DNA of 64,000 nt, taken from the NCBI RefSeq assembly GCF_000373585.1, contig NZ_KB891929.1, positions 186,001-250,000 of the forward strand. The letters are read 5' to 3'. Under the pieces are notes generated by a model. It had not been told where the DNA came from. It saw only the letters and a program-made list of their open reading frames with translations, and did no database searches. Each line of letters starts with the position of its first letter. The stretch's first letter is position 1. The position numbers and the translations under genes were made by a program. Positions 14,734 to 62,269 of this stretch are shown here, in pieces. The stretch is from Streptomyces sp. MspMP-M5 (GTDB lineage Bacteria; Actinomycetota; Actinomycetes; Streptomycetales; Streptomycetaceae).

Positions 14734-16638
14734 GTGGATTTCCTGGTGTTCCCCGACCACCCCCTCACCGACCGGCTCGCCGCCTGCCTGCCCCGGACCC
14801 CCGCCACCCGCACGATCGCCCACCTCTCCGGCCGCCCCTGGATCGTCGGCCACTGGCGGCCCGAGGAGCTGGTGACCGAGCGGGTCGGCCCGCGCTGCGC
14901 GGTGCTGCTCGGCACGACCTCGGCCACCCCCGGCGCGCTGGCCCGGCTGCTCCGCCGGCTGCGCGACCTCGACGACCTCGCCGGGCTGCGGCACGAACTC
15001 CCCGGCAGCTTCTTCCTGCTGGCCTGTATGGGCGCCGAGATCCGCGCGCAGGGCAGCCTCTCCGCGGTCCGCCGGCTGCACCGCACCGACCTCGCCGGCC
15101 TCACCGTGCTGGGCAGCCGCCCCCAGGACCTCGCCGCGCTGGCGCACGCCGCGGCCGCCTCCGGACTGCCCGGCACGCCCGGGATCGGCACCGTCGACGA
15201 GGAGGCGCTCGCCGCCCGGCTCCTCGCGCCCGGCGCCCCGTTACCCCTCGCGCTGCGCACCCCCTGGCGCGCGGTGCACGCCGTACCGCCCGGCCACTGC
15301 GCCGCGCACGACCCGGCCGGCCGGTACCGCGAGGACCGCTGGTGGCGCCCGCCGGAGCCGGACCTCCCGCTTCCGGACGCCGCCGAGGCGGTACGGGAGG
15401 CGCTCAGCGCCGCCGTCCACGCCCGCACGCACCGCGCCACGCTCAGCGCCGACCTCTCCGGCGGCCTGGACTCCACCAGCCTGTGCTTCCTGGCCGCCCG
15501 CGACGGCACCGAGCTGATCACCACCGGCTGGGAGGGCCGCGACCCGGCCGACGACGGCCCCCTGTGGAGCGCCCACAGCGCCTACCGCCTCAGCCGCGTC
15601 CGCCAGGAGGGCCGCCACCTCTCCCTCCCGTACACCGACGCCCCCACCTGGTACACCCCGCCCGCACAGCCCGCGCACACCGACCCCGCCGGCCCGTTGG
15701 CCGCCGTCCGGGAGGCGGCCCGGCTGCTCCACCAGGCCCGCCTGGTCGCGAAGTTCGGCTCCCGGATGCACCTGGCCGGCGTCGGCGGCGACGAACTGTT
15801 CGCGCTGCGGCCGGTGGCCCTGAACTCCCTCGCCCGCGGCGACCTCCGTGCCGCCGTGCGCCTGGCCCGCCGGGCCCGCCGGCTCGCCCCCTGGACGCTG
15901 CCGGCCACCGTCCGCACCCTGCTCGGCGGGTGCTGCTACCCCCGCTGGCTGGCCGCCGGCGCCGACCGGATCGCCCCCGGCGCGCGCCGCCGCCCCGCCG
16001 GCACGGACTGGGAGGACGTCCCGGCGATGCCGCCCTGGGCGCACCCGGACGCGGTCGCCACGGTCCGCCGGCTGCTGCGCGAGGCGGCCGCCGCGGCCCC
16101 CGAGCCGTTCGACCCGCTGCGCGCCCAGCACGAGACGGCCGCCGCCGCGGTCCGGGCCGGCGAGCGGGTACGCGGCATCGACGCCCTGACCTCGGCGTAC
16201 GGCGTGGCCTACGAGGCGCCGTTCCTGGACGACGCGGTGATCGAGGCGGCGCTGGCCGTCCGGCTCGCCGACCGGGTGCCGGGCGGCGGCGGCAAGCCGG
16301 TGCTGGCCGCCGCGATGCGCGGCACCGTGCCCGGCCCGGTCCTGGGCCGCGGCGGCCGGCGCGCGCACAGCGCGGAGTTGCATGCGGGGTTGCGCCGCAA
16401 CCGCCGGGCGCTGGCCGCGCTGTGCGCGGACTCCCGGCTGGCGGCGCTGGGCCTGATCCGCCCGGAGGCGCTGCGCCCGGTCCTGACGTCTCTCCAGCCG
16501 GACACCGGCGCGCTGCGGCCGCTGGACCCCACGCTGGCCGCCGAGTTCTGGCTGCGGGCCCTGCCGGACCGCCCGGCCTACGGCACCGTCCCGGCACCCG
16601 CCGGACGGGCGTCCGCCCCGGCCGCGGAGAGCGGCTGA
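14734..16638 (+). CDS. Lasso-peptide-cyclase-like asparagine synthase homologue (orphan)
   Basis: A 634-residue protein. The first 215 residues are a degenerate glutamine-amidotransferase-like domain lacking the Cys2 nucleophile (begins MDFLVFPDHPLTDRL), as in lasso peptide macrolactam synthetases. The synthetase half has the PP-loop LSADLSGGLDSTSLCF (SGGLDS at 242-247) and the LAGVGGDELFALRP motif, so ATP activation of an Asp/Glu side chain is chemically plausible. Lasso clusters also need a precursor, an RRE protein and a leader peptidase; none is adjacent. It may act on a precursor elsewhere, or be another amide-forming enzyme. GTG start with AAGGAG 12 nt upstream. Confidence 0.75.
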   Translation: MDFLVFPDHPLTDRLAACLPRTPATRTIAHLSGRPWIVGHWRPEELVTERVGPRCAVLLGTTSATPGALARLLRRLRDLDDLAGLRHELPGSFFLLACMGAEIRAQGSLSAVRRLHRTDLAGLTVLGSRPQDLAALAHAAAASGLPGTPGIGTVDEEALAARLLAPGAPLPLALRTPWRAVHAVPPGHCAAHDPAGRYREDRWWRPPEPDLPLPDAAEAVREALSAAVHARTHRATLSADLSGGLDSTSLCFLAARDGTELITTGWEGRDPADDGPLWSAHSAYRLSRVRQEGRHLSLPYTDAPTWYTPPAQPAHTDPAGPLAAVREAARLLHQARLVAKFGSRMHLAGVGGDELFALRPVALNSLARGDLRAAVRLARRARRLAPWTLPATVRTLLGGCCYPRWLAAGADRIAPGARRRPAGTDWEDVPAMPPWAHPDAVATVRRLLREAAAAAPEPFDPLRAQHETAAAAVRAGERVRGIDALTSAYGVAYEAPFLDDAVIEAALAVRLADRVPGGGGKPVLAAAMRGTVPGPVLGRGGRRAHSAELHAGLRRNRRALAALCADSRLAALGLIRPEALRPVLTSLQPDTGALRPLDPTLAAEFWLRALPDRPAYGTVPAPAGRASAPAAESG

Positions 16639-41716: not shown

Positions 41717-44700
41717 ATGAAGCCTCGGCTCACCGTCGTCGTCCCGGTCCCGCGTGGTGCGGGGTCCGCGCGCCATGTGGAGGAGTGTCTGGAGTCGGTG
41801 GCGGCCCAGACGCTGGCGGAGCTGGACGTGGTGCTGGTGGACGACGGTCCGGCGGAGGGGCCGGAGGGGCCGGGGCGGCGGCTGGCGGAGCGGGATCCGC
41901 GGTTCCGGGTGGTGCACCATGCGGGCGGGGGCCGGGGCGGGGCGTGGAACGCCGGTGCCCGGCACGCGTTCCCGCACACGGAGTTTCTGGCGTTCCTGGC
42001 GCCGGACGATGTGCTGCTGCCGCGGGCGTACGAGGATCTGACGGGGCTGCTGGAGACGTCGGGGTCGGATCTGGCGACCGGCAACGTCTACCGGCTGGGG
42101 GCGGCGGGCCGGAGCCAGTCGGCGGACCATGCGGCGGCGCGGGAGACGGTGCTGCGTACGCATGTCGCGGAGGATCCGGCGCTGCTGGGCGACCACTTCG
42201 TGCGGAACAAGGTGTTCCGGCGGACGTTCTGGGACCGGCACGGTTTCGTCTTCCCCGAGGGGGAGTGGTGCGACGGGGCGGCGGTGGCGCTGCCCGCGCA
42301 CGTGCTGGCGGAGGCGGTGGACGTGCTGGGCGAGCATGTCTGTTACTGGCGGCTGCCGGAGGGGCCGGGCGGGCGCCGGCCGGGTGCGCAGGGGGTGCGG
42401 GACCGGTTCGCGGCGGTGGCGCGGATGCGGGCGCTGCTGGCGGATCCGGTGCGTCCGGCGTGCGGCGGGCTGCGGGCGGAGTACGACCGGGCGCAGCTGA
42501 CCGGGGGGCTGCTGGATCTGGTGGCGGCGCTGCCGGGGGCGGCGTCGGAGGTGCGGACGGCGTTTTTGGACTGTGCCCGGGACTTTCTGTCGCGGACCGA
42601 TCCGCGGCTGTTGCGGGCGCTGCCGGTGGAGCTGCGGATGCGGTGGTATCTGGTCCGGGCGGGGCGGTTGTCGGACCTGGTGGCGCTGTTGGGGCACGAG
42701 GCGCGCAATCCGGGGGGTTTCGTGGTGGCGGGGGCGCCGCTGCGGCGGCGGGCGGTGCTGCCGGCGGAGCCGTCGGTGGTGTTGCCGGCGGGGGTGGTGC
42801 GGCTGGCGCGGGCGGATTTCCCGGTGCGGGCGGAGGTGCGGGAGGCGGTGTGGCGGGGTGGGGAGTTGTTGTTGCGGGGCTGGGCGTACTTGCGGAATCT
42901 GCCGGCGGGGACGCGGCACGGGTATCTACGGACGGCGGTGCTGTCGTGCGGGCGGCGGCGGATCGTGCTGCCGCTGCGGACGGTGGCGATGCCGGAGGCG
43001 ACCGCGGCGTCCGGGCAGGAGCTGCACTGTTACGACTGGGCGGGGTTCGAGCTGCGGGTGGATCCGGCGCGGTTGCGCCGCGGGGGGCGGCTGGTGCCGG
43101 GCGAGTGGCGGGTGGAGGTGCTGCTGGCGTCGGCGGGGGTGGTGCGGTCCGGGGAGCTGGGTGCGCCGGAGTGCGGGTCGGGGGCGGCGCCGGGGGCGTA
43201 CGAGGGGGTGGACGGAATGCGGGTGGTGCCGCGGTATGTGGACGGGCGGTTGCGGATCGCGGTGGACCGGCGGGTGCGGCGGCTGGTGGGGCCGCCGGCG
43301 GTGGCGGGCGGGGCGCTGGAGCTGACGGTGGCGGCGCCGGGTCCGGCGCCGGTGGCGCTGCGGCTGACGCACGGGGAGACGGGGACGGTGGTGTCGTTCC
43401 CGGTGGAGGGCGCGGCGGACGGCGTGGCCGCGGCCGTCCCGGAGGACCGCGGCGCGGACCCGGACGCAGACACGGACCCGGACCCGGACACGGACGCGGA
43501 CGCCGCCGGCGGGCGGTGCGTGGTGCGGGTGCGGGTGCGGCTGGACGCGTGGGACGCGGCGCGGCCGGTGCGGGACGGCGGGCCGGCCGCGATCCCGGCG
43601 CCGCACACCGAGACCTGGCTGCCGGAGCTGGTGCTGCCGGGCGGCGGCACCGACCCGGTGGGCTGCCCGCCGGGGATGGCGCCGGTGGCCCATCCGCTGC
43701 CGCACGGGCGGGAGTTGGTGGCGGCGGCGTCGCCGGCCGGGGATCTGGTGCTGCACGACCGGGTGCCGCAGGCGTACGTGGACCGGGTGGTGTGGCGGAC
43801 GGACGGGACGCTGCTGCTGGCGGGGGTGCTGCCGGACGCCGCGCCGCCGGTCCCCGAGCTGGTCCTCAAGCACACCGCGCACGCCGCCGAGGCGGTGTTC
43901 CCGGCGGTCCACGACGCGGGGCGGTTCCACTGTTCGCTGCCGCTGGCGGCGCTGCCGTCGCTGGCCGGGGAGGTGCCGCTGCGGGAGGGCCGCTGGACGG
44001 TGCATCTGCGGGAGCGGGGGGCGGCGGCCTCGCCGCTGGACGCGCCGGTGCGGTACGCGCCGTCGGTGTTCGACGGGCTGCCGGTGTCGCGGACGGTGCG
44101 CGGCAAGCCGTTCACGCTGGACCGGGTGGGGCACGACGAGGTGTTCGTGGCGGCCGGGCCGGCGCTGCCGCCGGTGGACCGGGGCCCGTACCGGCGGCGG
44201 GTGCTGCGCGAGCAGCACTATCCGCTGCACCGCTCCCGGCCGCTGCGCGACACGGTGCTCTACAGCAGCTTCGGCGGCCGGGCGTACGGGGACTCGCCGC
44301 GGGCGGTGCACGAGGAGCTGGTGCGGCGGGGGCTGGAGGTCACGCATCTGTGGGCGGTGCGGGACGCGCAGACCGCGGTGCCGCCGACGGCCCGGCCGGT
44401 GCTGGTGGGCAGTGCGGCCTGGCACGGGGCGCTGGCGCACAGCCACTGGATCGTCACCAACACGCATCTGCCGCGCTGGTTCGTGCGGCGGGCCGGGCAG
44501 CGGGTGATCCAGACGTGGCACGGGACGCCGTTGAAACGGATCGGCGCGGATCTGGCGGGGACGCTGTGCGGGGGGCTGGCGCATCTGGCGCCGCGGCCGC
44601 GGCTGGGCCGGCAGTGGAGCGTGCTGCTGTCGCCGAACGCGGCGAGCACGCCGGTGCTGCGGTCGGCGCTGGGCTACGCCGGGAAGATGCTGGAGACGGG

Positions 44701-45322
44701 GCTGCCGCGGACCGATGCGCTGCACGCCGCGGACCGGGAGGAGGTGGCCGCCGCGGTCCGGGCCCGGCTGGGCGTGGGGCCGGAGAAGCGGGTGGTGCTG
44801 TACGCGCCGACGCCGCGCGACGACGTGGCGTACGACGCCTCGCACCACCGGCTGCATCTGCCGCTGGACCTGGACGTGGCGCGGTCGGCGCTGGAGGGGG
44901 ACCATGTGCTGCTGGTGCGCAGCCATCCGCAGGTGCCGGACCGGCTGCCGGCGCACCATGCGCCGTTCGCGGTGGACGTGTCGTCGTACCCGGACGCGAC
45001 GGAGCTGCTGCTGGCCGCGGACGTGCTGGTCACGGACTACTCGTCGCTGGCGGTGGACTTCGCCAACACCGGCCGGCCGATGCTGTTCCTCACTCCTGAT
45101 CTGGCGCACTACCGTGACACGTTGCGTGGTTTCAGCCTGGACTTCGAGGCGCGGGTGCCGGGTCCGCTGCTGTCGTCGACGGGTGAGCTGGTCGAGGCGT
45201 TGGGGGAATTGCCGGCGGTGGCGCGGGCGAGTGCGCCGGCGTATGCGGAGTTCCGGCGGGTGTTCTGCCATCTCGACGACGGCGGGGCGGCGGGGCGGGT
45301 CGCGGATCTGGTCATGGAGTGA
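41717..45322 (+). CDS. GT2 / CDP-glycerol glycerophosphotransferase fusion
   Basis: A 1201-residue membrane-associated polymerase-like enzyme. Residues 1-about 230 are a family 2 glycosyltransferase (LTVVVPVPRGAGSARHVEE, LDVVLVDDGP, EFLAFLAPDDVLLP). The middle (about 350-810) is a series of beta-rich segments. Residues about 835-1195 are a TagF-type glycerophosphotransferase: DTVLYSSFGGRAYGDSPRAV, QTWHGTPLKRIGADLAG, SHPQVPDR and VLVTDYSSLAVDFANTGRPM. It should add a sugar and polyol-phosphate units to a teichoic-acid-like wall polymer. Codons end mostly in G, unlike most of the window. Confidence 0.87.
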   Translation: MKPRLTVVVPVPRGAGSARHVEECLESVAAQTLAELDVVLVDDGPAEGPEGPGRRLAERDPRFRVVHHAGGGRGGAWNAGARHAFPHTEFLAFLAPDDVLLPRAYEDLTGLLETSGSDLATGNVYRLGAAGRSQSADHAAARETVLRTHVAEDPALLGDHFVRNKVFRRTFWDRHGFVFPEGEWCDGAAVALPAHVLAEAVDVLGEHVCYWRLPEGPGGRRPGAQGVRDRFAAVARMRALLADPVRPACGGLRAEYDRAQLTGGLLDLVAALPGAASEVRTAFLDCARDFLSRTDPRLLRALPVELRMRWYLVRAGRLSDLVALLGHEARNPGGFVVAGAPLRRRAVLPAEPSVVLPAGVVRLARADFPVRAEVREAVWRGGELLLRGWAYLRNLPAGTRHGYLRTAVLSCGRRRIVLPLRTVAMPEATAASGQELHCYDWAGFELRVDPARLRRGGRLVPGEWRVEVLLASAGVVRSGELGAPECGSGAAPGAYEGVDGMRVVPRYVDGRLRIAVDRRVRRLVGPPAVAGGALELTVAAPGPAPVALRLTHGETGTVVSFPVEGAADGVAAAVPEDRGADPDADTDPDPDTDADAAGGRCVVRVRVRLDAWDAARPVRDGGPAAIPAPHTETWLPELVLPGGGTDPVGCPPGMAPVAHPLPHGRELVAAASPAGDLVLHDRVPQAYVDRVVWRTDGTLLLAGVLPDAAPPVPELVLKHTAHAAEAVFPAVHDAGRFHCSLPLAALPSLAGEVPLREGRWTVHLRERGAAASPLDAPVRYAPSVFDGLPVSRTVRGKPFTLDRVGHDEVFVAAGPALPPVDRGPYRRRVLREQHYPLHRSRPLRDTVLYSSFGGRAYGDSPRAVHEELVRRGLEVTHLWAVRDAQTAVPPTARPVLVGSAAWHGALAHSHWIVTNTHLPRWFVRRAGQRVIQTWHGTPLKRIGADLAGTLCGGLAHLAPRPRLGRQWSVLLSPNAASTPVLRSALGYAGKMLETGLPRTDALHAADREEVAAAVRARLGVGPEKRVVLYAPTPRDDVAYDASHHRLHLPLDLDVARSALEGDHVLLVRSHPQVPDRLPAHHAPFAVDVSSYPDATELLLAADVLVTDYSSLAVDFANTGRPMLFLTPDLAHYRDTLRGFSLDFEARVPGPLLSSTGELVEALGELPAVARASAPAYAEFRRVFCHLDDGGAAGRVADLVME

Positions 45323-45557
45323 GGGGGCCGGCGGCGCGGTGAGGGCGGCGGGGCCTGCGGTGCGGGACGGTCCGGTGTGCGGTGTCCGGATCGGCATCTC
45401 CCGGCGCCGGCGTCGTTACCGCATGTACGGGCGTCCTGCGGGGCGTCCGCGCGGGTCGCTTCACGGTCCGGTGCCGGGGTCCGGCTGGTCACGAGACGGC
45501 AATGAGGCGAAAAAAGCGGGCGGCGGGTGCAACCGCTCGGTGGTTTTCGGCCTCTGA

Positions 45558-45567
45558 TCCTTAAGGA
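45558..45567. promoter_or_regulatory. Palindrome TCCTTAAGGA upstream of the GT2 gene
   Basis: A perfect 10-bp palindrome flanked by CTG/CAG on both sides, in an unusually AT-rich 60-bp stretch about 60 nt before the start. It may be an operator. The rest of 45323-45557 shows nothing clear. Confidence 0.3.
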
Positions 45568-45629
45568 CAGGGGTCCGAACCCGCTCGCGCCAAGTGCTGC
45601 TGTCGACACGAAATGTAGATTTAGTGACT

Positions 45630-47309
45630 GTGAATGACGCCCTTGAGTCACAGCCTCGGCCCACCCTGTCGCCCGCCGCGCAGGTCAGCGTCGTCGTCAT
45701 CGCGTTCAACGACGCCGTGCACGTCGCCGACGCGGTGCGGTCGGCGCTCGCGCAGGGGGACGCGGTCGCGGAGGTGATCGCGGTGGACGACGCCTCCACC
45801 GACGGCACCGGCGCGGCGCTGGACGCCCTGGCCCGCACCGAGCCGCGGCTGCGGGTCCTGCACCGCGGCGAGAACAGCGGCGGCTGTGGTTCCCCCCGTA
45901 ACGACGGGCTGCGGGCCGCCGCCGGCCGCTTTGTGATGTTCCTCGACAGCGACGACGTGCTGCCGCCGGGCGCGGTGCCGGCGCTGCTGTCCGCGGCGCT
46001 GGAGCACGGGGCGCCGGTCGCCGCGGGTGCCTGTGTCCGCCGGGAGCTGCCGGCCCGCCGCGATGTGCCCTGGCAGCCGGCGCTGTACCGCGAGCCGGCC
46101 GTGTACGACGGGCCCGACGCCGCGCCGCAGCTGGTCCGCGACACGCTCTGCGTCAACAAGCTCTACGCCCGGGAGTTCCTCACCGGCCACGGCATCGCCT
46201 TCCCCGAAGGCCGCTACCACTACGAGGACTTCGTCTTCACCGCCCGGGTGCTGGCCGCCGCCCCGAAGATCGCGACCGTGCCCGACACGGTCTACGTCTG
46301 GCATGTGCGCCGCGCCGCCGCCAAGCAATCGATCTCCCTGGACCGCAAGGACGTCGCCAACTGGCGGCAGCGCATCGAGGCGCACCGCACGGTGCTGCGG
46401 ATCCTCGGCGACGCCGGGCACAAGACGCTGGTGGCGGCCGCGGCCACCAAGTTCCTCGACCATGATCTGCGGATGTACGTCCGGGAGCTGCACACCCGCG
46501 GCGCCGACTACCGCGCCGAGTGGTGGCGGCTGACCCGCGACCACCTGGCCTCCTTCGAGGACGCCGAGGTGCGGGCCGCGCACGCCCCGGCCCGCTGGCT
46601 GGCCCGGGTGGTGCTGGCCTCCTCCGCCCCCCGCGACCTGGAGCGGCTGACGCAGCTGGCGGCCCGTCCCGGCCGTCTGCTGCCCCCGTACGCGACGGGC
46701 CCCGACGGCGTCCCGGTCTGGTCGGCGGACCTGCCCGAGGTGCGGCTGGAGGGCCTGGCGCCCGGGGACGCGGTGGACGCCGCCGACGAGGACGTGCCCG
46801 GCGCCGACGCCACCCCCCTCCTGCCGGTGACCGTCGACGCCGATCCGGTGCTGGGCGCGGCCCGCGGTGTGCTGCGGCTGCGGGTCCACGACCTGTACGG
46901 GCGGCTGGCCGCGGCCGGCCCGGTCAGCATCGACGTCGCACTGCACCGCCGCCGGGACGGCCGCCCCGGCCCGGTGCTGACCGCCGCCCTCGCGCCCACC
47001 GCCGACGGCACCGCCTGGACGGCCGCGGCGGTGCTGGACCTCGCCCCGCTGACCGAGCTGCCCGGCTCGCGGCCCGACGAGCCCGAGCCGTGGGACGTCA
47101 CGGCCCGGCTGACCTGCGCGGACGGCACCGTCGTCGGGGCCGGGCTGCGGGCCGTGGGCGACGGTCTGCGGCGGCGGGTGCTGCCCAGCCGGCGCCGGCT
47201 GGTGCTGCTGGCCCAGCCGTACACCACCACCGGCGGTGCGCTGGCGTTCCGGGTGGCGTCGGGGCCGCGCAGTGTGTGGCGGATCGCCGCCCGGCGGCTG
47301 CGCCACTGA
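45630..47309 (+). CDS. Family 2 glycosyltransferase
   Basis: A 559-residue enzyme. The GT2 fold starts with VSVVVIAFNDAVHVADAVRS, has VAEVIAVDDASTDGTG and the donor-binding FVMFLDSDDVLPP, and an acceptor region KLYAREFLTGHGIAFPEGRY and HYEDFVFTARVL. The C-terminal 200 residues are beta-rich, as in wall-teichoic-acid glycosyltransferases. Start is ambiguous: GTG 45630 is used because TAGATT at 45616-45621 would make it leaderless, but GTG 45594 and GTG 45624 are in frame. Using 45594 puts a rare TTA codon (45621-45623) in the gene. Confidence 0.86.
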   Translation: MNDALESQPRPTLSPAAQVSVVVIAFNDAVHVADAVRSALAQGDAVAEVIAVDDASTDGTGAALDALARTEPRLRVLHRGENSGGCGSPRNDGLRAAAGRFVMFLDSDDVLPPGAVPALLSAALEHGAPVAAGACVRRELPARRDVPWQPALYREPAVYDGPDAAPQLVRDTLCVNKLYAREFLTGHGIAFPEGRYHYEDFVFTARVLAAAPKIATVPDTVYVWHVRRAAAKQSISLDRKDVANWRQRIEAHRTVLRILGDAGHKTLVAAAATKFLDHDLRMYVRELHTRGADYRAEWWRLTRDHLASFEDAEVRAAHAPARWLARVVLASSAPRDLERLTQLAARPGRLLPPYATGPDGVPVWSADLPEVRLEGLAPGDAVDAADEDVPGADATPLLPVTVDADPVLGAARGVLRLRVHDLYGRLAAAGPVSIDVALHRRRDGRPGPVLTAALAPTADGTAWTAAAVLDLAPLTELPGSRPDEPEPWDVTARLTCADGTVVGAGLRAVGDGLRRRVLPSRRRLVLLAQPYTTTGGALAFRVASGPRSVWRIAARRLRH

Positions 47310-47353: not shown

Positions 47354-48340
<987 letters not shown>

Positions 48341-53689: not shown

Positions 53690-55675
53690 TCAGCCCTTCC
53701 CGTCAGCCCCCGCCGGCGGCACCGTGAGTGTCAACGGGCCGCGGCCGTCGGCCGATCGGACCGGGAGTTCGCGGCGCAGGCCGCCGGCGGTGAGGCGGAG
53801 GGCGACCCGCCAGGTGCCCGGGGGGCCGCTGCGGAGGCGGGAGCGGGCGCGGTAGCGGTCGCCGGCGCCGCGTTCGACGGTGGTGCGCAGGGCCACGCAG
53901 CGGGTGGCGTCGCGCAGCACGAACTGGAGGCCGGCGTCGGCGGGGCAGCCGGGGAGGGTGACGCGGGCGGCGACCGTGGCGCGGCCGGTGCGGGTGCAGG
54001 CGGCCTCGCCCCGGAGGTCGGTGCCGAGCGGGCGGCGGGCGCCGTCGTGGTCCAGGTCGAGGTGGAGGTGGCCGTGCGGGGAGGAGAGGAAGAGGGCGGC
54101 GACGGTGGGTCCTTCGGGGCCGTGGCCGACGACGCGGGGCGTGGTGTCGGTGGCCGGTGCGCCGCCTTCGGGGACGAGCCAGGCTTCACGGCGGAGGCCG
54201 GCGGCGTCCACGCCGGCGTCGACACCGGTGTCCACCCCGGCGTCGGCCCCGTCCCCCTCCGCCGCCACCGCGATCTTCAGGCCCCAGATGCCGTCCGCCA
54301 GTGGGGTGCCGTGGGCGGCGGTGGCCGGATCGAGGGCGGCGTGCCAGGTGTCGTCGGGGCCGAGCGAGGCGGGGACGCGGAGGTGGGCGCCGCTGCGGTG
54401 GAGGACGAGATCCACGTGATCGGCCCCGACGGGACCGGTGGCACGGAGGGTGGCGGTGCCGTGGAGGTGGAGGACGCCGCCGACCCACTGGAGGCCGGTG
54501 AGGCGCTGGTGGACGGCGATCCGGTCGGTGAGGTCGTAGAGGGCGTCCGGCAGCGGGTGGTCCGGGTCGCGGAAGTGCGGGTAGGCGGCGTAGGCGCGGC
54601 CGTTCTCGATGCGGGGGCGGCCGGCCGCGGGTGCGGTGCCGGGGGCGGAGTCGGCCCGGACGACGTCGGTCAGTTCGGTGTCGAGGCCGGCGCGCAGGCA
54701 GTGGGCGCGGAGTCGGAGGCCGGGCGGGAGGGCGGCGGAGACCCGGTCGGTCAGATAGCGGTCGACGAGGGGGCGGGCGGCCTCGCGCATCGCGCGCCGG
54801 CCGGCCTCGTCCCGGGCGAGGTAGGGGGCCGCGAACGGCATGAGTATCTCGCCGTGGAAGTGGCGGACCATCAGTTTGTCGCGGTCCGGGCCGGGTGGGA
54901 CCTCGGCGGCGAGGCCGGCCAGGACGGTGTCGATGTAGGCGAGGTAGGCGGGCCAGTCCATGTCCTGGCGGGAGGCGTTGCTGTCGTCCGCGCGGCCGTG
55001 CAGGTAGTAGCAGTCGTAGTCGGCGAGGACGGAGACGGTGCCGGCGCGCAGCAGGGCGGCGATGCCGAAGGGGAGGTCCTCGGCGAGCAGCCGGCCCTCG
55101 ACGAAGCGCAGGTGGTGGCGCTCGACGAAGGAGCGGCGGAAGAGCTTGTAGGCGGCCAGCGACCAGTAGACGGGTGAGTCGAAGACCGAGACGCGGGGGC
55201 TGGTGGTGCGCAGGTCGACGGGGGCGCCGCGGCCGTCGGTGCCGACGATGCGGCCGTAGACGATGTCGGAGCCGTGCTCCTCGGCCATCCGGGTGAGGCG
55301 GTCCAGGGCCTCGGGGCCGAGGTGGTCGTCGGAGTCGAGGAAGAAGACGTAGTCGCCGGTGGCGCGGTCCAGGCCGACGTTGCGGGGTCTCCCGGCGCCG
55401 CCGGAGGCGGGCTGGTGGACGACCGTGAGGCGGGGGTGGGCGGCGGCGGCCTCGTCGAGCCAGGCGGCGCTGCCGTCGGTGGAGCCGTCGTCGACGGCGA
55501 TGATCTCGATGCGGTCCGGGTCGAGGGTCTGGGCGAAGACCGAGCCGAGGCTGCGGTCCAAGTAGCGGCGGGTGTCGTGGACCGGCACGATCACGGTGAC
55601 GGTCGGGGCGTCGGGGCCGTGCGGGTGGCCGGGGCCACCGGTGCCGTCCTCGGGACGAGCGGAGTTGCGGGACAC
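53690..55675 (-). CDS. Family 2 glycosyltransferase with beta-rich C-terminus
   Basis: A 661-residue enzyme. The GT2 domain (residues about 24-240) shows VTVIVPVHDTRRYLDRSL, IEIIAVDDGSTDGSAAW, ASGGAGRPRNVGLDRA, and the donor-site DYVFFLDSDDHLGPE. The second half is helical, then a beta-sandwich like that of wall-polymer glycosyltransferases such as TarS/TarP relatives. It has the same architecture as the gene at 45630 and the N-terminus of the fusion at 41717, so the three are probably paralogues serving one surface polymer. GTG 55675 has GGAGG 11 nt upstream. Confidence 0.88.
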   Translation of the reverse strand: MSRNSARPEDGTGGPGHPHGPDAPTVTVIVPVHDTRRYLDRSLGSVFAQTLDPDRIEIIAVDDGSTDGSAAWLDEAAAAHPRLTVVHQPASGGAGRPRNVGLDRATGDYVFFLDSDDHLGPEALDRLTRMAEEHGSDIVYGRIVGTDGRGAPVDLRTTSPRVSVFDSPVYWSLAAYKLFRRSFVERHHLRFVEGRLLAEDLPFGIAALLRAGTVSVLADYDCYYLHGRADDSNASRQDMDWPAYLAYIDTVLAGLAAEVPPGPDRDKLMVRHFHGEILMPFAAPYLARDEAGRRAMREAARPLVDRYLTDRVSAALPPGLRLRAHCLRAGLDTELTDVVRADSAPGTAPAAGRPRIENGRAYAAYPHFRDPDHPLPDALYDLTDRIAVHQRLTGLQWVGGVLHLHGTATLRATGPVGADHVDLVLHRSGAHLRVPASLGPDDTWHAALDPATAAHGTPLADGIWGLKIAVAAEGDGADAGVDTGVDAGVDAAGLRREAWLVPEGGAPATDTTPRVVGHGPEGPTVAALFLSSPHGHLHLDLDHDGARRPLGTDLRGEAACTRTGRATVAARVTLPGCPADAGLQFVLRDATRCVALRTTVERGAGDRYRARSRLRSGPPGTWRVALRLTAGGLRRELPVRSADGRGPLTLTVPPAGADGKG

Positions 55676-55822
55676 GGGAACAGTGGCCTCCGTTCCTTTC
55701 TGCGGGTCCTCGCCCTACCCCGCCCCCTCCGGGGTAAAACGGACTATCAAGCCATCAAGCCATATAAATCGTTCGCTGCCTGTCTGTGCGCGGGGGACCG
55801 CGCCGACCTCGGAGGAGCGCCG

Positions 55823-58510
55823 GTGAGCCCGACACCTTCCGCCCCCCAAGAGGGGGTCCGGGACCGGGAGGTTGCCCGGAGTCCGTCCGGCGCGACCCGT
55901 GCCGCACCCGCGGGGCCGGCCCGGCGCCGGGCGGCCGCGCCCGGGCTCGCGGCGCTGCTGTCCATGGGCGCGTACTGCCTGGCGCTGGCCGTCCACGGAA
56001 GCTATCCGTTCGGGCCGCGGCCCCGTTCGGTGAACGATCTGGGCAACCAGTTCGTGCCCTTCCACGCCCGGCTGTGGGACCTGTTGCACGGCGGCGCCCA
56101 CGGGGACCTGTTCTTCAACTGGGGCAGCGGGTACGGCGTCCCGTTCCTGGCGGACTTCGTCACGTATCTGATGAACCCGTTCTCGCTGCTGGTGGGGGTG
56201 TTCCCGCGGGCGCTGGTGGATCTGCCGGTGTTCCTGGTGACGCTGCTGAGCATCGGGCTGGGCGCGGCGCTGATGACCGTTCTGCTGGGGCGGCTGCGGG
56301 CCGGGCCGGGCGGGCTGCGGGCGCTGCTGGCGGTGGGGTACGGGCTGTGCGCGTGGGTGCTGAGCGACGGGTACGCCGATCCGATGTGGATGTGGGGGCT
56401 GGTGTCGCTGCCGCTGCTGGGGATCGCGGCGGACTGGTGCCTGCGGCGGGTGCGGTGGGTGGCCGGGACGCTGCTGGTGGCGGTGGCGTGGGCCGGGAAC
56501 TTCTACACCGCGGCGATGGCGACGCTGGCGACGGGGCTGGTGCTGGTGGTGCGGCTGTGGGTGGAGGGGCCGGCGGAGCGGGGCGGCGCCGGGCCCGGGG
56601 GCGGGCGGCTGCGGGTGGCGGGCCGGGCGGCCGGTACGGCGGCGGCCGGGATCGCGCTGGCCGCGCCGGTGCTGACGGTGACGCTGCGGGCCAGCCGGGC
56701 CTCGCAGCAGCCGCCCCCGGCGGTGTACGAGGGGCGGCCGCCGCTGCTGGACCAGCTGGCGAAGCTGCTGCCGCCCGGGCACGGCACGGTGCCGGCGCCG
56801 AACATCTCGGTCGGGGTGGCGGCGCTGCTGCTGGCGGCGGCCTTCCCGTTCGTCCGGGCGGTGCCGGTGCGGGCCCGGGTCGGGTGGACGCTGCTCGCAC
56901 TGGGGATGGGCGCGTCGTTCGTGTGGAAGCCGACGATCCTGCTGTGGCACGGCCTGGCGCTGCCCAACGGGAGCCCGTACCGGGTCGCGTTCGTGCTGAG
57001 CGGGGTGCTGGTGATGATCGCCTGGCTGGCGCTGGCGCACCGCCCGCGGCCGCGGGAGCTGGCCGCGGGGGCGGGGCTGGTCGCGGCGCTGCTGGTGTGC
57101 TGCCGGAACCGGAGCGCAGTGAGCGGCGCGACCTGGCTCGTGGTGGCGGGCGGCGGGGCGCTGGTCCTGGCGGCGCTGGCGGCGCCGGCCCGCCTGCGGG
57201 CGCGGCGGCGGGGCCGGGCGGCGGCCACCGGGGCGCTGGCCGCCGTGGTGACGCTGACCGCGGCCTACACGGCGTTCTCGGTGACCGCCGCGCGGGACGC
57301 GATCCCGTGGTTCCGGCCGAAGCCCACCATGTCCGAACGGGCGCTGGCCGCCCGGCGCGGACTGGCCGCCCGGGACGACTGGCCGCGGTCCCGTACGGAC
57401 CCGGGCCCGCACGAGTTCGCCGACAACGATCCGCTGCTGATCGGCGGCGAGGGCGGCGCGTACTACAGCAGCTATGTGCCGGCGGCGGCCGCCCGGACGC
57501 TGCGCGGGCTGGGCGCCGGCTGGTACATCCGGGGGCGGCACACGCTCAGCTTCCAGGACCCGGTGGGGCGGGCCCTGATGGGGGTGGGCAGTGCGCTGGT
57601 GCCGCCGGCGCCGGGTGCGCCGCGCGGCCGGCTGACGGTGGTGCGCGGGCGGCCGGCGCCGCTGCTGACCGTGCGGCGCGGGCCGCTGCCGGGGCCCGGC
57701 GCCGGCCCGGACACCGTCTTCGCCCGCCAGGAGCGGGTGCTCGGCGCCCGCGTCTACGAGGTGCCGCGGCTGGTGCCCGGCGCCGGCCCGGCCCCGCAGC
57801 GGGCGCCCGGCGGCTGGCTGCTGCCGGACCGCCCGCTGCCCGGCACGGACGCCGGCGTGCTGCCCAGGCCCGACGCGCCGGGCGCCGGGGCGGCCTTCAC
57901 CGCGCGGTGCACCCCGGGCAGCCTGGCGCTGTGGTACGCGCCGTGGTTCGCGGGCGAGGTCGCCGGGCCGGGCGGGGCCGCCCGGGCGGTGGGCCAGTGG
58001 GACGGCACCGCCAACCCGCTGCGGCGCCTGGGCACCGTACCGGCGGACGGGGTGGTGCGGGTGCGGTTCACCGGGCAGCGCCGCGCGTTCGTGCCGGAGC
58101 GAGCCGTGGGCTGTCTCTCCACGGGGCGGCTGGCCGCGGCGGTGCGGGCGCTGGAGGGGCCGGTGCGGCTCACCGCGGGCGGCCACGACCTGACGGCGCG
58201 GCTGCGTCCGGGGGCGGCGGGGACCGCGGTGCTCGCCCTGCCGGCGGTGTCCGGATGGGGCTGTTCGGTGGACGGCGGGCCGGTCCGGGCGCCCGGGTCG
58301 TTCGGCGGTCTGGCGGCCGTGCCGCTGCGCCGCGGGGCGACCCGGCTGAGCTGTGCGTACGAGCCTCCGGGGCTGGCCGCGGGGCTTGCGGTGAGCGGTG
58401 CGGGGGTGCTGGCGGTGGGGGCGGTGGCCGGTACCACGGCGGTCCGCCGCCGGCGGCGCCGTCCCCCTCCATCTGCCTTCCCGAATAGTGCGTTTCATCC
58501 CGATTCGTAA
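55823..58510 (+). CDS. YfhO-family membrane glycosyltransferase (GT-C fold)
   Basis: An 895-residue integral membrane protein. After a 45-residue basic N-terminus, some 12-14 helices follow. The first outer loop VNDLGNQFVPFHARLWDLL carries the catalytic-type acidic residue seen in YfhO enzymes, and GVPFLADFVTYLMNPFSLL is also typical. The C-terminal 300 residues are an extracytoplasmic beta-rich domain. In Bacillus, YfhO transfers a sugar from a polyprenyl-phosphate donor made by CsbB to lipoteichoic acid. The adjacent GtrB- and GtrA-type genes fit this scheme. GTG 55823 has GGAGGAG upstream. Confidence 0.88.
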   Translation: MSPTPSAPQEGVRDREVARSPSGATRAAPAGPARRRAAAPGLAALLSMGAYCLALAVHGSYPFGPRPRSVNDLGNQFVPFHARLWDLLHGGAHGDLFFNWGSGYGVPFLADFVTYLMNPFSLLVGVFPRALVDLPVFLVTLLSIGLGAALMTVLLGRLRAGPGGLRALLAVGYGLCAWVLSDGYADPMWMWGLVSLPLLGIAADWCLRRVRWVAGTLLVAVAWAGNFYTAAMATLATGLVLVVRLWVEGPAERGGAGPGGGRLRVAGRAAGTAAAGIALAAPVLTVTLRASRASQQPPPAVYEGRPPLLDQLAKLLPPGHGTVPAPNISVGVAALLLAAAFPFVRAVPVRARVGWTLLALGMGASFVWKPTILLWHGLALPNGSPYRVAFVLSGVLVMIAWLALAHRPRPRELAAGAGLVAALLVCCRNRSAVSGATWLVVAGGGALVLAALAAPARLRARRRGRAAATGALAAVVTLTAAYTAFSVTAARDAIPWFRPKPTMSERALAARRGLAARDDWPRSRTDPGPHEFADNDPLLIGGEGGAYYSSYVPAAAARTLRGLGAGWYIRGRHTLSFQDPVGRALMGVGSALVPPAPGAPRGRLTVVRGRPAPLLTVRRGPLPGPGAGPDTVFARQERVLGARVYEVPRLVPGAGPAPQRAPGGWLLPDRPLPGTDAGVLPRPDAPGAGAAFTARCTPGSLALWYAPWFAGEVAGPGGAARAVGQWDGTANPLRRLGTVPADGVVRVRFTGQRRAFVPERAVGCLSTGRLAAAVRALEGPVRLTAGGHDLTARLRPGAAGTAVLALPAVSGWGCSVDGGPVRAPGSFGGLAAVPLRRGATRLSCAYEPPGLAAGLAVSGAGVLAVGAVAGTTAVRRRRRRPPPSAFPNSAFHPDS

Positions 58511-58517
58511 AATGGCC

Positions 58518-58551
58518 TTTCAGGGGACGCCCGCGCGGGCGTCCCCTGAAA
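58518..58551. terminator. 34-nt perfect inverted repeat between yfhO-like and gtrB-like genes
   Basis: Two perfectly complementary 17-nt arms (58518-58534 and 58535-58551) start 8 nt after the yfhO-like stop and end 30 nt before the next ATG. It could end or attenuate the first transcript, setting a ratio between the transferase and the donor synthase. Confidence 0.75.
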
Positions 58552-58580
58552 CCCGGCGAACTCCGGCGAACGGCCCGCTC

Positions 58581-59573
58581 ATGAAGCTCTCCATCGTCGT
58601 CCCCTGCTACAACGAAGAGGCCGTCATAGGCCGCTTCGACGACCAGCTGCGCGCGGTCCTCGACGGCCTCGCGGTGGAGTACGAGCTGTGCTACGTGGAC
58701 GACGGCAGCCTCGACGGGACCCTGCCCCGGATCCGCGCCCTGGCCCAGCAGCACCGCGGCACCACCCGCTACCTCTCCTTCAGCCGCAACTTCGGCAAGG
58801 AGCCGGCGATGCTGGCCGGGCTCCGGGCGGCCACCGGCGACGCGGTGATCCTCATGGACGCCGACCTCCAGCACCCGCCGGAGCTGATCGAGAAGATGCT
58901 CGACCTCTACCAGCTCGGCCACGACCAGGTCATCGCCCGGCGCAGCCGGGACGGCGACCGGCGGCTGCGCACCACCCTCAGCCGCCTCTACTACCGCGCC
59001 GTCAACACCTGGATCGACGTCGAACTGGTCGACGGCGCGGGCGACTTCCGGCTGCTGTCCCGCAAGGCCGTGGACGCGCTGGTCTCGCTGCCCGAGTACA
59101 ACCGCTTCTCCAAGGGCCTGTTCTCCTGGATCGGCTTCGACACCGTCAGCTTCGACTACCGCAACGCCGCCCGGGAGGCCGGCGAGACCAAGTGGCGCTT
59201 CGGCGCACTGGTCAACTACGGCATCGACGGCATGATCTCCTTCAACTGCCGCCCGCTGCGCGCCGCCATCTACGCCGGCCTCGGCCTGGCGCTGCTCGCC
59301 ACCCTCTACGCCCTGTGGGTCATCGGCGCGGCCGTCGCCGGCGGGGTCACCGCGCCCGGCTATGTGACGCTGGTGGCCATCATCGTGGGACTGGGCGGCC
59401 TCCAGATGGTGATGCTCGGGCTGATCGGCGAGTACATCGGGCGGATCTACTACGAGACCAAGCGGCGTCCGCACTTCCTGGTCAAGGAGAGCGACGGCGT
59501 CGCCCCGCCGCCCGACCCGGTGCCCGCGTCCGCCCCGCCCGGGACCGCCGCCGTCGGCCCGCGGTCCCGCTGA
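58581..59573 (+). CDS. GtrB/CsbB-like polyprenyl-phosphate glycosyltransferase
   Basis: A 330-residue DPM1-like GT2. The fold shows LSIVVPCYNEEAVIGRF, LCYVDDGSLDGTL and VILMDADLQHPPELI; GAGDFRLLSRKAVDAL and GLFSWIGFDT are diagnostic of the GtrB/DPM1 group. Two C-terminal helices (AIYAGLGLALLATLYALW and YVTLVAIIVGLGGLQMVML) anchor it. It makes a polyprenyl-phosphate-linked sugar in the cytoplasmic leaflet. Its stop overlaps the next ATG (TGATG), coupling translation to the flippase. Confidence 0.92.
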   Translation: MKLSIVVPCYNEEAVIGRFDDQLRAVLDGLAVEYELCYVDDGSLDGTLPRIRALAQQHRGTTRYLSFSRNFGKEPAMLAGLRAATGDAVILMDADLQHPPELIEKMLDLYQLGHDQVIARRSRDGDRRLRTTLSRLYYRAVNTWIDVELVDGAGDFRLLSRKAVDALVSLPEYNRFSKGLFSWIGFDTVSFDYRNAAREAGETKWRFGALVNYGIDGMISFNCRPLRAAIYAGLGLALLATLYALWVIGAAVAGGVTAPGYVTLVAIIVGLGGLQMVMLGLIGEYIGRIYYETKRRPHFLVKESDGVAPPPDPVPASAPPGTAAVGPRSR

Positions 59574-60031
59574 TGCGCGGTCCGGCCGCGGCGGTCCCGT
59601 GGGGCCAGGTCGTCCGGTTCACGGCGGTCGGCGTCGTCAACACCGTGACCTTCTACGCCTGTTACCTGCCGCTGCACCGGCTGCTGCCGTACTTCGCGGC
59701 CTACACGGCGGGCTTCGTCCTCAGCCTGGTCGGCTCGTTCTTCCTCAACACCTACTTCACCTACCGCACCCGCCCCACCTGGCGGAAGTTCCTGCTCTTC
59801 CCGCTGACCCAGGTCACCAACTACGCGGTGCAGAGCGCCGGTCTGGTGGCGCTGGTGAGCTGGCTGGGGATGGACAGCGTGGCGGCGCCGCTGGCCGCGG
59901 CCCTGCTGGCGCTGCCGGTCACCTTCCTGGTCTCCCGCCGGATCCTCCGACCACCGGTCCGCCCGGCCCCCACCCCCGAACAGCCCGATCAGCCCGAGCC
60001 GCCACCGGTGCGCTCGGGGCGGTCGGCCTAG
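59573..60031 (+). CDS. GtrA-family flippase
   Basis: A 152-residue membrane protein with four helices (QVVRFTAVGVVNTVTFYACY, AYTAGFVLSLVGSFFLNTYF and two more). GtrA proteins help move the polyprenyl-phosphate sugar across the membrane. ATG 59573 overlaps the TGA of gtrB, so the two are made together. The tail is Pro/Glu-rich. Confidence 0.92.
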   Translation: MRGPAAAVPWGQVVRFTAVGVVNTVTFYACYLPLHRLLPYFAAYTAGFVLSLVGSFFLNTYFTYRTRPTWRKFLLFPLTQVTNYAVQSAGLVALVSWLGMDSVAAPLAAALLALPVTFLVSRRILRPPVRPAPTPEQPDQPEPPPVRSGRSA

Positions 60032-60055
60032 ACACGGTCGTCGAACTCCCGTCGT

Positions 60056-60070
60056 CCGCCCGGAAGGCGG
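60056..60070. terminator. Short hairpin between gtrA-like and PIG-L genes
   Basis: CCGCC/GGCGG stem with a CGGAA loop, followed on the plus strand by GCGGGCTTTCC. It lies between convergent genes. The stem is short, so this is a weak call. Confidence 0.4.
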
Positions 60071-60082
60071 GCGGGCTTTCCG

Positions 60083-62269
60083 TCACCGGCCCTGCGCGCG
60101 CCAGGCCAGGAACGGCGCGGTCTGCCCGGGCTTGCCCTGCCGGGCCGCGTACAGCCGGCCGTCGTTGCCGAGGGCGACCAGCACCGCCCGGCCGGCCGTG
60201 TCGCCGGCCACCCCGGCCGCCGCCGAGTGCGCCAGCCGGCACCGCTGCCAGGGCTTGGGCGCGGCCTGCGCCATCGCCACCCGGACGTCGCCGGCGTCGT
60301 CCCGGCCGGCCAGCACCATCCGGTCGCCGCGGCCGGCCGGCGCCAGTGCCACCCGCCCGTAGCCGCCGGCCCGTTCGCACTGCCCGGAGACCCGCCAGCT
60401 GCCGATCGCCCGCTGCCGCTCGGCGATCACCACCCGCGCGGTCCCCGTCTGCCGGTAGGCGATCCGCACCACACCGCCGGCCAGCGGGGCGATGCTGACC
60501 GGCCCGCCCGGCTCCGGCAGCCCGGTGGCCGCGCCCGGCCGCGGCGTCTCCCCCGGCTCCTTGGACACCCAGTGCTGGACGGTCCGCACGCTGGGCGCGA
60601 CCAGGTGGATCAGCCCCTCGGCGTCCACACAGGCGTCGATCCCGTCGACGACCTGCGGGGACGCCCTGAGGGTGCCGACGCCGGCCGGGCCCTCCAGCCG
60701 GTCCCACGGCGACCACTGCGCGCCGTGCGGCCCGCTGCAGTGGCCGACGCCGCCGTCCCAGGTCTTCACGAAGACGTGCACCGTGCCGTCCCGGGCGGCC
60801 ACCGCGGCGGGGAACCCGACCTCCAGCGACCGGACCGCATCCCGTTCCGGGGACCCCAGCGACTCCCACGCCCCGAAGGCCGGCGATCCGCCCCGGCCGG
60901 TGCCGGTCTGCCGCGCGGTGACCAGCTCGCGCCGGTGCTCCGTGCCCGGCCCCGGCAGCACCGTCCGGGACGCGAACAGCTGAAGGGTGCCGTCGGGATG
61001 GCGCACCGCGTGGATCTGCCCCTCCAGCGACTCCCCGCCGACCCGGGCCGGGGCGCCGAACCGGCCGCTGCCCGGCCCGGTCTCCGCCCAGCAGTACGCG
61101 GCCCCGCCGAGCACCGCGAAGGCGGTCAGCCGCCCGTCCCGGGCCGGCCGCACCCAGGCGTTGGAGCCGGGGGCGCGCAGCCGGGTGCTGCGGGTCCAGT
61201 TCCGCGGGCTGCCGTTGAGGGCCGTGTCGCCGACCTTGCGGTCGCCGCAGCCGGCCGGGTCGCCGCACGGGCGGTGGTCGGCCCAGCCGTAGACGTCGAG
61301 CGTGCCGGCCTTGCGGCGGGCGGTGGACAGGTCGAGGTCGTTGGGCAGCACCCCGAGCTCGTAGCCGAGGTAGCTCTCCACGATGGCCGGGGCGGGGTGG
61401 CCGCGTCCCCAGTAGCGGGCCAGCGCCGCCTGGGTGAAGTGGGCGGAGGCGGTGTGGTCCTGGTGGTCGAAGTAGCGCAGACCGGCCAGCCGGGGGTCGG
61501 GGGCGGGCAGCGGCGGCTTGTCGGAGTGCACCGCGTCGGGGTCCAGGGTGCGGACGACGGTGGGCCGCACCCAGTCGAGGACCGCCGCCAGGGTGTCGGT
61601 GACCTGGTCGCGGGTGTAGCGGAACTGCCGCTGGACGGGGCTGCCCTCGGGCCGCAGGGTGGGCAGCGAGTCGGCGACCCCGAGCCAGAGGCCGCGCAGG
61701 CTGGTGGCGCGCGGCTGGCAGACCGCGCGGGCCTCGACCAGCTCCACGAAGACCAGCTGGTGCTGGGGGGCGGCGCGCAGCGTCTGGATCTCCACTTGGA
61801 AGCCGGGCAGCAGGGTGCGGGCCTCGCCGTCCCAGACACCGGCGCGGTCGCCGGTGGCCATCTGGGCGTGCGCGGCGAGCAGTCCGTTGACCCGGGCCCG
61901 GGCGAAGGCCGGCCGGTCGGCGACCACCCGGTCGTGCAGGGCGCTGCCGCGGAGGGCGTTGCGGCCGTCGGACTCACCGCCCGTCAGGCACACCGTGACC
62001 ACCCGCGCACCGCTGCGGATGGCCTGGTACAGCCCCGGGTTCATGAAGAACAGTCCGTCGTCGGGGTGCGCGATGACGTGCAGGAACACCTGCTCGGCCA
62101 GCTCCTCGGGCGGCTGCTGCTCACGGGCCGGCGGGGCCGGGCGGGCCGCGTCGGGGGACACCCAGGCCCACACACCGGCGCCCGCGGTGGCCGCGAGAAC
62201 GGCACCGCCGGTCGCCTGGAGCAGCCGGCGGCGGGAGACGAGCGGTCCTGACGGTCCTGACCGGGGCAC
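60083..62269 (-). CDS. Secreted PIG-L deacetylase with propeller-like C-terminus
   Basis: A 728-residue exported protein. A Tat-type signal (SRRRLLQATGGAVLAATAG) lies at about residues 12-33. The PIG-L/LmbE deacetylase domain (about 60-320) has the zinc motifs FLHVIAHPDDGLFF (HPDD) and RYFDHQDHTASAHF. The remaining 390 residues show repeated W-G and DGxLxLFA-type blades and look like a seven-bladed lectin-like propeller. It may de-N-acetylate a GlcNAc-containing surface glycan, which fits the neighbouring envelope genes. GTG 62269 is the only sensible start; no good ribosome binding site is seen. Confidence 0.88.
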   Translation of the reverse strand: MPRSGPSGPLVSRRRLLQATGGAVLAATAGAGVWAWVSPDAARPAPPAREQQPPEELAEQVFLHVIAHPDDGLFFMNPGLYQAIRSGARVVTVCLTGGESDGRNALRGSALHDRVVADRPAFARARVNGLLAAHAQMATGDRAGVWDGEARTLLPGFQVEIQTLRAAPQHQLVFVELVEARAVCQPRATSLRGLWLGVADSLPTLRPEGSPVQRQFRYTRDQVTDTLAAVLDWVRPTVVRTLDPDAVHSDKPPLPAPDPRLAGLRYFDHQDHTASAHFTQAALARYWGRGHPAPAIVESYLGYELGVLPNDLDLSTARRKAGTLDVYGWADHRPCGDPAGCGDRKVGDTALNGSPRNWTRSTRLRAPGSNAWVRPARDGRLTAFAVLGGAAYCWAETGPGSGRFGAPARVGGESLEGQIHAVRHPDGTLQLFASRTVLPGPGTEHRRELVTARQTGTGRGGSPAFGAWESLGSPERDAVRSLEVGFPAAVAARDGTVHVFVKTWDGGVGHCSGPHGAQWSPWDRLEGPAGVGTLRASPQVVDGIDACVDAEGLIHLVAPSVRTVQHWVSKEPGETPRPGAATGLPEPGGPVSIAPLAGGVVRIAYRQTGTARVVIAERQRAIGSWRVSGQCERAGGYGRVALAPAGRGDRMVLAGRDDAGDVRVAMAQAAPKPWQRCRLAHSAAAGVAGDTAGRAVLVALGNDGRLYAARQGKPGQTAPFLAWRAQGR

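Follow-up and report, generated by a model that had tools for sequence, protein, structure and literature searches.

A probable YfhO–GtrB–GtrA outward glycosylation set in Streptomyces that probably tailors the product of a neighbouring wall-polymer gene cluster

We analysed a stretch of 64,000 nucleotides of Streptomyces sp. MspMP-M5 (contig NZ_KB891929.1, positions 186,001–250,000 of the forward strand; the whole stretch is called the window, and its genome G000), in which three adjoining genes encode a YfhO-like membrane protein, a GtrB-type polyprenyl-phosphate glycosyltransferase and a GtrA-type flippase. The trio is very probably an outward glycosylation set, by which a sugar is loaded on a membrane lipid, flipped and attached outside the cell. 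We further propose, with a rough probability of 0.55, that the sugar is transferred to a wall glycopolymer made by nearby TagF-fusion, family-2 glycosyltransferase (GT2) and galE genes, so that the trio would serve them as an optional module for tailoring. The analysis established which genes are present, the predicted fold, the conserved residues, the co-occurrence and the synteny; the reaction, its order, the acceptor and the sugar are inferred.

The yfhO-like gene (55823–58510, +; 895 amino acids) has a GTG start with GGAGGAG just upstream, and is followed by gtrB (58581–59573, +; 330 amino acids) and gtrA (59573–60031, +; 152 amino acids). The preliminary description of this DNA had placed these three genes side by side, and their coordinates were confirmed, with Pfam scores far above the cut-offs: 173.6 bits for the YfhO family (PF09586, cut-off 28.5), 106.5 bits for GtrB against Glycos_transf_2 (PF00535, cut-off 23.3) and 74.4 bits for GtrA against GtrA_DPMS_TM (PF04138, cut-off 26.1). 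GtrB carries a DAD motif at residues 93–95, and its residues 2–306 match PDB entry 5ekp (Synechocystis sll0501) at an E value of 3.9e-74. These sequence matches support the assignment of GtrB as a polyprenyl-phosphate sugar transferase and of GtrA as a flippase. Genome-wide, we found one YfhO gene, one GtrB match of the window type (E 1e-60) and three GtrA matches. Elsewhere, two GtrB homologues adjoining YfhO have one internal TGA each (G041:C12:296847–297806 and G086:C1:1095328–1096281) and are either pseudogenes or sequencing errors.

Searches of PDB sequences with the YfhO protein, both single and profile, gave no match at E values up to 1. Its structure was also predicted (predicted local distance difference test, pLDDT, 88.7; predicted template modelling score, pTM, 0.90). 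By eye, the model has about a dozen membrane helices, a jelly-roll-like domain at residues ~643–766 and then a last helix. Foldseek returned six matches at E values of at most 0.001, to AftD (best 1.9e-7), EmbB and ArnT (best 9.2e-5). With VIA-align, entries for oligosaccharyltransferase (OST), AftD and ArnT stood among the top rows at Z scores of 14.4–17.6 (yeast OST: Z 17.6 over 440 residues at 6.0 Å; AftD: Z 17.3 over 542 residues at 5.4 Å; ArnT 5ezm: Z 14.8 over 454 residues at 5.9 Å), while residues ~643–766 bear a weak likeness to jelly-roll carbohydrate-binding domains (Z ~7 over 90 residues). On the basis of this model, the YfhO-like protein is a GT-C-fold glycosyltransferase. AftD and ArnT share this fold with it; however, they are only 12–13% identical to it, and they use other donors and acceptors.

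The catalytic acid of GT-C enzymes sits after the first helix, and a candidate for this role was found in an alignment of 50 YfhO proteins (the window's and those of 49 of the 72 loci at hand, 24–83% identical to it). Asp72, Arg352, Arg387 and Arg524 are invariant in all 50, and Asp536 is Asp in 49 and Glu in one. Asp72 (codon 56036–56038, +), a single Asp in the sequence VNDLG with no DXD, comes after helix 33–58 of the model and is predicted, from the model and the GT-C precedent, to lie in the first outside loop. Candidate DXD motifs of Bacillus subtilis YfhO are themselves not conserved, according to PMC5836110. A YfhO-like protein lacking catalytic acidic residues, one of the outcomes that the preliminary description had named as speaking against its proposal, was not seen, and an absence of conserved acids is ruled out by the invariant Asp72. 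The earlier proposal that a polyprenyl-phosphate transferase, a GtrA flippase and a GT-C enzyme form one set thus gains support from the families, the 5ekp match, the fold and the invariant acidic residue.

In the mechanism that we envisage, GtrB would transfer one sugar from a UDP-sugar to undecaprenyl phosphate inside the cell, GtrA would move the lipid-sugar across the membrane, and the GT-C enzyme YfhO would pass the sugar to an acceptor outside, perhaps held by the jelly-roll-like domain. The likeliest acceptor would be the wall glycopolymer of the neighbouring TagF-fusion, GT2 and galE genes, and the sugar may be galactose (Gal), N-acetylgalactosamine (GalNAc) or N-acetylglucosamine (GlcNAc). 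The order of loading, flipping and transfer is taken from the systems of Bacillus, Staphylococcus and Listeria (PMC8035078, PMC5836110), where CsbB, GtcA and YfhO comprise the same three protein families and follow the same logic as the window trio; according to these sources they place GlcNAc on lipoteichoic acid in B. subtilis and S. aureus and on wall teichoic acid in Listeria monocytogenes. The window differs from those systems in that yfhO, gtrB and gtrA adjoin one another with a hairpin between the first two, and in having a galE/TagF-fusion cluster and a PIG-L gene close by.

The genes of the proposed polymer cluster lie upstream. A GT2::TagF-type fusion (41717–45322, +; 1201 amino acids) ends 10.5 kb before yfhO and scores 293.6 bits against PF04464 (cut-off 22.1) and 215.6 bits against the TarF model, below its cut-off of 550. 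It is followed by GT2_45, a family-2 glycosyltransferase of 559 amino acids that adjoins galE in related loci (45630–47309, +; PF00535, 98.5 bits), and by galE itself, for UDP-glucose 4-epimerase (47354–48340, +; TIGR01179, 332.8 bits, cut-off 262.3), which ends 7.5 kb upstream of yfhO. Divergent from yfhO, a family-2 glycosyltransferase with a TarS linker (53690–55675, −; PF00535, 104.5 bits; PF22181, 61.2 bits, cut-off 27) was counted in favour of a wall-polymer acceptor. The window presumably corresponds to the SCO2949–SCO2997 region of S. coelicolor.

For comparison, the YfhO protein was used as a query, and 19 named loci were collected with 10 kb flanks. In 16 of them yfhO is followed by gtrB and gtrA, which exceeds a chance arrangement; of the remaining three, L013 ends at a contig edge, and L022 and L025 have no gtrB in the 10 kb flank. 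In a simple frame walk, yfhO of two of the 16 (L018 and L021) was interrupted by a stop, either internally or at its start. A galE gene lies within the flank of 13 of the 19 loci, and in three (L014, L015 and L018) it precedes yfhO by 0.1–0.6 kb, and no other homologue of a window gene intervenes. In four loci with a GtrB at least 70% identical to the window's near GT2_45 (L084–L087), the stretch from GT2_45 to gtrB contains galE and a TagF-type domain. Genome G071 keeps the TagF-fusion, GT2, galE and TarS-linker genes without the trio and without PIG-L, which fits an optional module. Directly after its TarS-linker gene, where the window has the trio, G071 carries a shorter GT2::TagF-type gene (L088:11424–13865, +; 814 amino acids).

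We then considered the distribution across 81 Streptomyces genomes with a completeness of 90% or more. As members of a single genus they are not independent samples, and the p values below make the associations look stronger than they are. YfhO is patchy (33 of the 81), and GtrB of the window type occurs in 43. GtrB is present in 32 of the 33 genomes with YfhO (the exception is G069) compared with 11 of the 48 without it (Fisher p 4e-12). Two types of linkage were found among the 49 GtrB matches, 18 of which have a YfhO match within 5 kb (in 18 genomes) and 14 a GT2_45-type gene within 15 kb. In the first, GtrB is 58–63% identical to the window's and adjoins YfhO (15 genomes); in the second, GtrB is at least 70% identical and lies near GT2_45 in 14 of 15 genomes, the two being on different contigs in G054. 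G004 holds both types. A single GtrB close to both YfhO and GT2_45 occurs in three genomes only, those of the window, G044 and G056. YfhO is present in each of the 15 genomes of the second type, compared with 18 of the 66 others (p 1.3e-7), and in 12 of these 15 the GtrB of that type was not found beside YfhO. In a tree of 57 YfhO rows (a quick method with midpoint root, in which the program flagged joining of long branches), the window's clade comprises 26 rows with an SH-aLRT support of 100. It includes copies from 13 of the 15 genomes of the GtrB subgroup, the window counted and G004 and G023 excepted, and none from the remaining 17 numbered genomes whose YfhO is in the tree. Because the YfhO clade and the GtrB subgroup match, the window's kind of YfhO is tied to the TagF/galE genes, including in genomes that carry the two at separate places.

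Several of these results weigh against transfer to the product of the neighbouring cluster. Of the 49 GtrB matches, 20 are near neither YfhO nor GT2_45, one of them on a split contig. Across the 81 genomes, neither YfhO (GT2_45 type in 21 of 33 genomes with it versus 22 of 48 without, p 0.17) nor GtrB (22 of 43 versus 21 of 38, p 0.82) is significantly associated with the GT2_45 type as a whole, and only the subgroup is linked. Eight of the 13 genomes in the window's YfhO clade also carry a YfhO outside it, so that either copy may serve the cluster, and five named loci (L022–L026) have yfhO with no TagF, GT2_45 or galE match in the flank. These five loci would also fit a different target of outward glycosylation, a polymer or glycolipid whose genes lie elsewhere in the genome, such as the product of a second GT2::TagF gene on contig C51, a teichulosonic acid or a poly(diglycosyl phosphate). 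The genome has two further Glyphos_transf matches (C51:34004–35110, 341.1 bits; C2:196921–197694, 38.1 bits), and the S. coelicolor wall is described as containing a teichulosonic acid of Gal and 2-keto-3-deoxynononic acid (Kdn), often GlcNAc-substituted, together with a Gal-GlcNAc phosphate polymer (PMC7831098, PMC11481543). However, the synteny of the trio with the TagF, GT2 and galE genes is kept in the window's clade and the YfhO and GtrB subgroups match, and we therefore regard such a distant acceptor as unlikely, if the most plausible of the alternatives.

The conserved hairpin that parts yfhO from gtrB in the window and eight relatives is a further point against the proposed set. In the window it is a perfect inverted repeat of 34 bases in the gap between the two genes (58518–58551, no strand assigned; 28-base core at 58521–58548) with no T run, and the 81-base stretch that holds it has a folding energy of −44 kcal/mol (z −4.3). 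Within 55500–60300 we found neither a standard T-run terminator nor a sigma-70 promoter. Across the nine sequences, for which 12 pairs were counted, 90.7% of the 107 cells are paired, compared with 31–55% after sliding one to three columns. Three pairs are changed on both sides, a number reached in 16 of 500 shuffles, and the covariation score was equalled in 2 of 500. From this comparison, the hairpin looks to be under selection, and it is probably a terminator, an attenuator or a processing site. With it standing between yfhO and gtrB, a single transcript of the trio should not be taken for granted. The TGATG coupling of the preliminary description holds for gtrB and gtrA (stop/start overlap at 59571–59575, +), whose one-base overlap is shared by 14 of the 16 named loci that have gtrB adjoining yfhO; it does not extend to the whole trio, as yfhO is set apart. 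The gap between yfhO and gtrB is only 38 bases in L014 and L017.

Such a covarying element could also mean that yfhO adjoins gtrBA by chance, the two being independent units, with GtrB and GtrA serving another GT-C enzyme. The 12 genomes with a similar GtrB not found beside any YfhO, and the 11 with GtrB and no YfhO, would agree with this, as would a locus in which another hydrophobic protein, polytopic by eye, is divergent from gtrB (L086:8347–9999, +). This last protein, in a galE/TagF-type cluster without yfhO, has a TSDDW motif and could be another GT-C partner. A chance neighbourhood nevertheless seems very improbable given the co-occurrence of YfhO and GtrB (32 of 33 genomes), the matching of their subgroups and the 4 bases that yfhO and gtrB share in L015 and L027, as would be typical of an operon.

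A different acceptor is suggested by the named models that these proteins match. Of the named models, PgfS scores highest for GtrB (371.9 bits, under its cut-off of 500), and YfhO matches just two NCBIfam models, PgfM2 (97.7 bits) and PgfM1 (64.0 bits). By analogy with the Pgf system of Streptococcus mutans, GtrB would be PgfS, YfhO would correspond to PgfM1/M2 and galE to PgfE, and secreted or surface proteins would be glycosylated. The pgf operon has a similar parts list, with a GT-A enzyme, two YfhO-like membrane proteins and a UDP-glucose epimerase, and acts on Cnm and WapA (PMC5856776). The likeness is incomplete, with two membrane proteins and protein acceptors in S. mutans and one YfhO in the window, and all three scores are under the curated cut-offs (1500 for PgfM2 and 1400 for PgfM1). 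There is no CsbB model in the tables, so the ranking may reflect the available names only. Moreover, the neighbours that were searched are polymer genes (the TagF fusion and the TarS linker); surface-protein genes were not searched for. Together these points make protein glycosylation improbable.

For a wall glycopolymer as the acceptor, the preliminary description had suggested a teichoic-acid-like type. The conserved link of part of the family to the TagF-fusion, GT2 and galE genes makes such an acceptor plausible, and a teichoic acid in the narrow sense is weakened because no CDP-glycerol synthase of the TagD type was found in the window's genome. In the search with TIGR01518, the window's genome gave no match, none of the 81 genomes was above the cut-off, 58 had weaker matches (perhaps other nucleotidyltransferases or divergent enzymes) and two of 14 control genomes were above it; the missing match is another point against our proposal. 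A ribitol-type or unlike polymer, or a divergent enzyme, is possible. The general statement that Streptomyces has different wall polymers goes too far, since the lipoteichoic acid of S. hygroscopicus is a poly(glycerol phosphate) (PMC3196553), and a study of B. subtilis and Listeria indicates that the modified polymer is not easily predicted from homology alone (PMC5836110). As to the sugar, the GalE residue at what we take to be the gatekeeper position is not the bulky one (GDPARVVA). On that assumption Gal and GalNAc would both fit, and both are possible.

Convergent with gtrA, and overlooked in the preliminary description, lies a PIG-L gene (60083–62269, −) whose product combines a Tat-like (twin-arginine translocation) signal, a PIG-L de-N-acetylase domain (PF02585, 43.9 bits, cut-off 28.2) and a beta-propeller of the PLL-lectin type. 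The motif residues H68, D70, D71 and D268-H-Q-D-H272 are invariant in 13 of 13 aligned sequences, and those that bind metal are presumably the same as in MshB. RRR and a hydrophobic stretch were seen by eye in 12 of the 13 sequences, the start of the 13th (L014) being placed downstream of that point, and the protein is a candidate for export through the Tat-like signal. A PDB sequence search gave no match at E 0.01. The predicted model is moderate (pLDDT 67.8), with a clear propeller that matches Photorhabdus PLL lectins (PLL4: Z 37.1 over 320 residues, root-mean-square deviation 2.4 Å) and a catalytic domain barely covered by the structure comparison; no PIG-L structure was among the matches listed. 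Two further PIG-L/propeller paralogues, 38% and 41% identical, lie ~10 kb apart in the same genome (C36:32462–34480 and 44123–46099).

This neighbour raises the idea that YfhO adds an N-acetylhexosamine to the wall polymer outside and that the exported lectin-propeller PIG-L protein deacetylates it there, leaving a positively charged amino sugar. In S. hygroscopicus, Cot and colleagues described a poly(glycerol phosphate) lipoteichoic acid in which 22% of the units bear alpha-glucosamine (GlcN), 6% bear alpha-GlcNAc and none has an amino-acid substituent; the wall teichoic acid was much alike. They proposed GlcN as a possible substitute for D-alanine, saw no clear orthologue of LtaS among the sequenced actinobacteria and detected no such polymer in S. 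verticillus (PMC3196553). If a CsbB/YfhO-like set added GlcNAc and deacetylation then took place outside, this GlcN/GlcNAc pattern would result. The PIG-L gene follows gtrA in 10 of the 16 named trio loci and also in G044 and G056, and PIG-L is present in 15 of 15 genomes of the GtrB subgroup compared with 29 of the 66 others. On the other side, the six trio loci without it comprise three with galE (L015, L018 and L027, of which L015 shows only 3 kb past gtrA) and three without (L023, L024 and L026), and PIG-L adjoins the trio only in the window, G044 and G056 among the 81 genomes. PIG-L is multi-copy, occurring at E 1e-40 in 44 of the 81, and its association with YfhO is weak (23 of the 33 YfhO-bearing genomes versus 21 of the 48 others, p 0.025). 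Outside trio loci, the four closest homologues (52–54% identical; G026, G043, G058 and G067) come from genomes that lack YfhO, and in G008, which has neither YfhO nor GtrB, a 36% identical homologue lies 6.5 kb from a GT2_45 gene. Deacetylation after transfer is accordingly a doubtful lead, offered tentatively.

Apart from these genes, the window encodes an asparagine-synthase-like protein (14734–16638, +) that scores 212.5 bits against the albusnodin/ikarugamycin macrolactam cyclase model (cut-off 300) and may belong to a small peptide cluster; inspection by eye revealed no precursor.

Among known systems, the S. hygroscopicus lipoteichoic acid is a chemically known product of the kind that the window cluster and PIG-L could make; the account used here names no decoration genes for it (PMC3196553). 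In another actinomycete, the gsf cluster of Actinoplanes missouriensis (sporangium) has been proposed to glycosylate outside by means of GtrA; it differs from the trio in that YfhO is not mentioned in that text and the authors' candidate transferase is not a GT-C enzyme (PMC13390465). In the titles and abstract openings returned by our searches of open PMC papers we found no Streptomyces member of the trio, and the two papers naming both YfhO and Streptomyces concern, by title, B. subtilis and S. aureus. The trio is very probably a Streptomyces member of the known transmembrane glycosylation systems, and it probably tailors the polymer of the TagF-fusion/GT2/galE cluster. Outward glycosylation by CsbB, GtcA and YfhO was worked out in Firmicutes, and a Streptomyces set linked by synteny to a polymer cluster would offer a genetic handle on wall decoration in major antibiotic producers. 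If the deacetylase lead is true, it would supply candidates for the genes behind the free glucosamine of Streptomyces teichoic acids, and a means of tuning wall charge without D-alanine.

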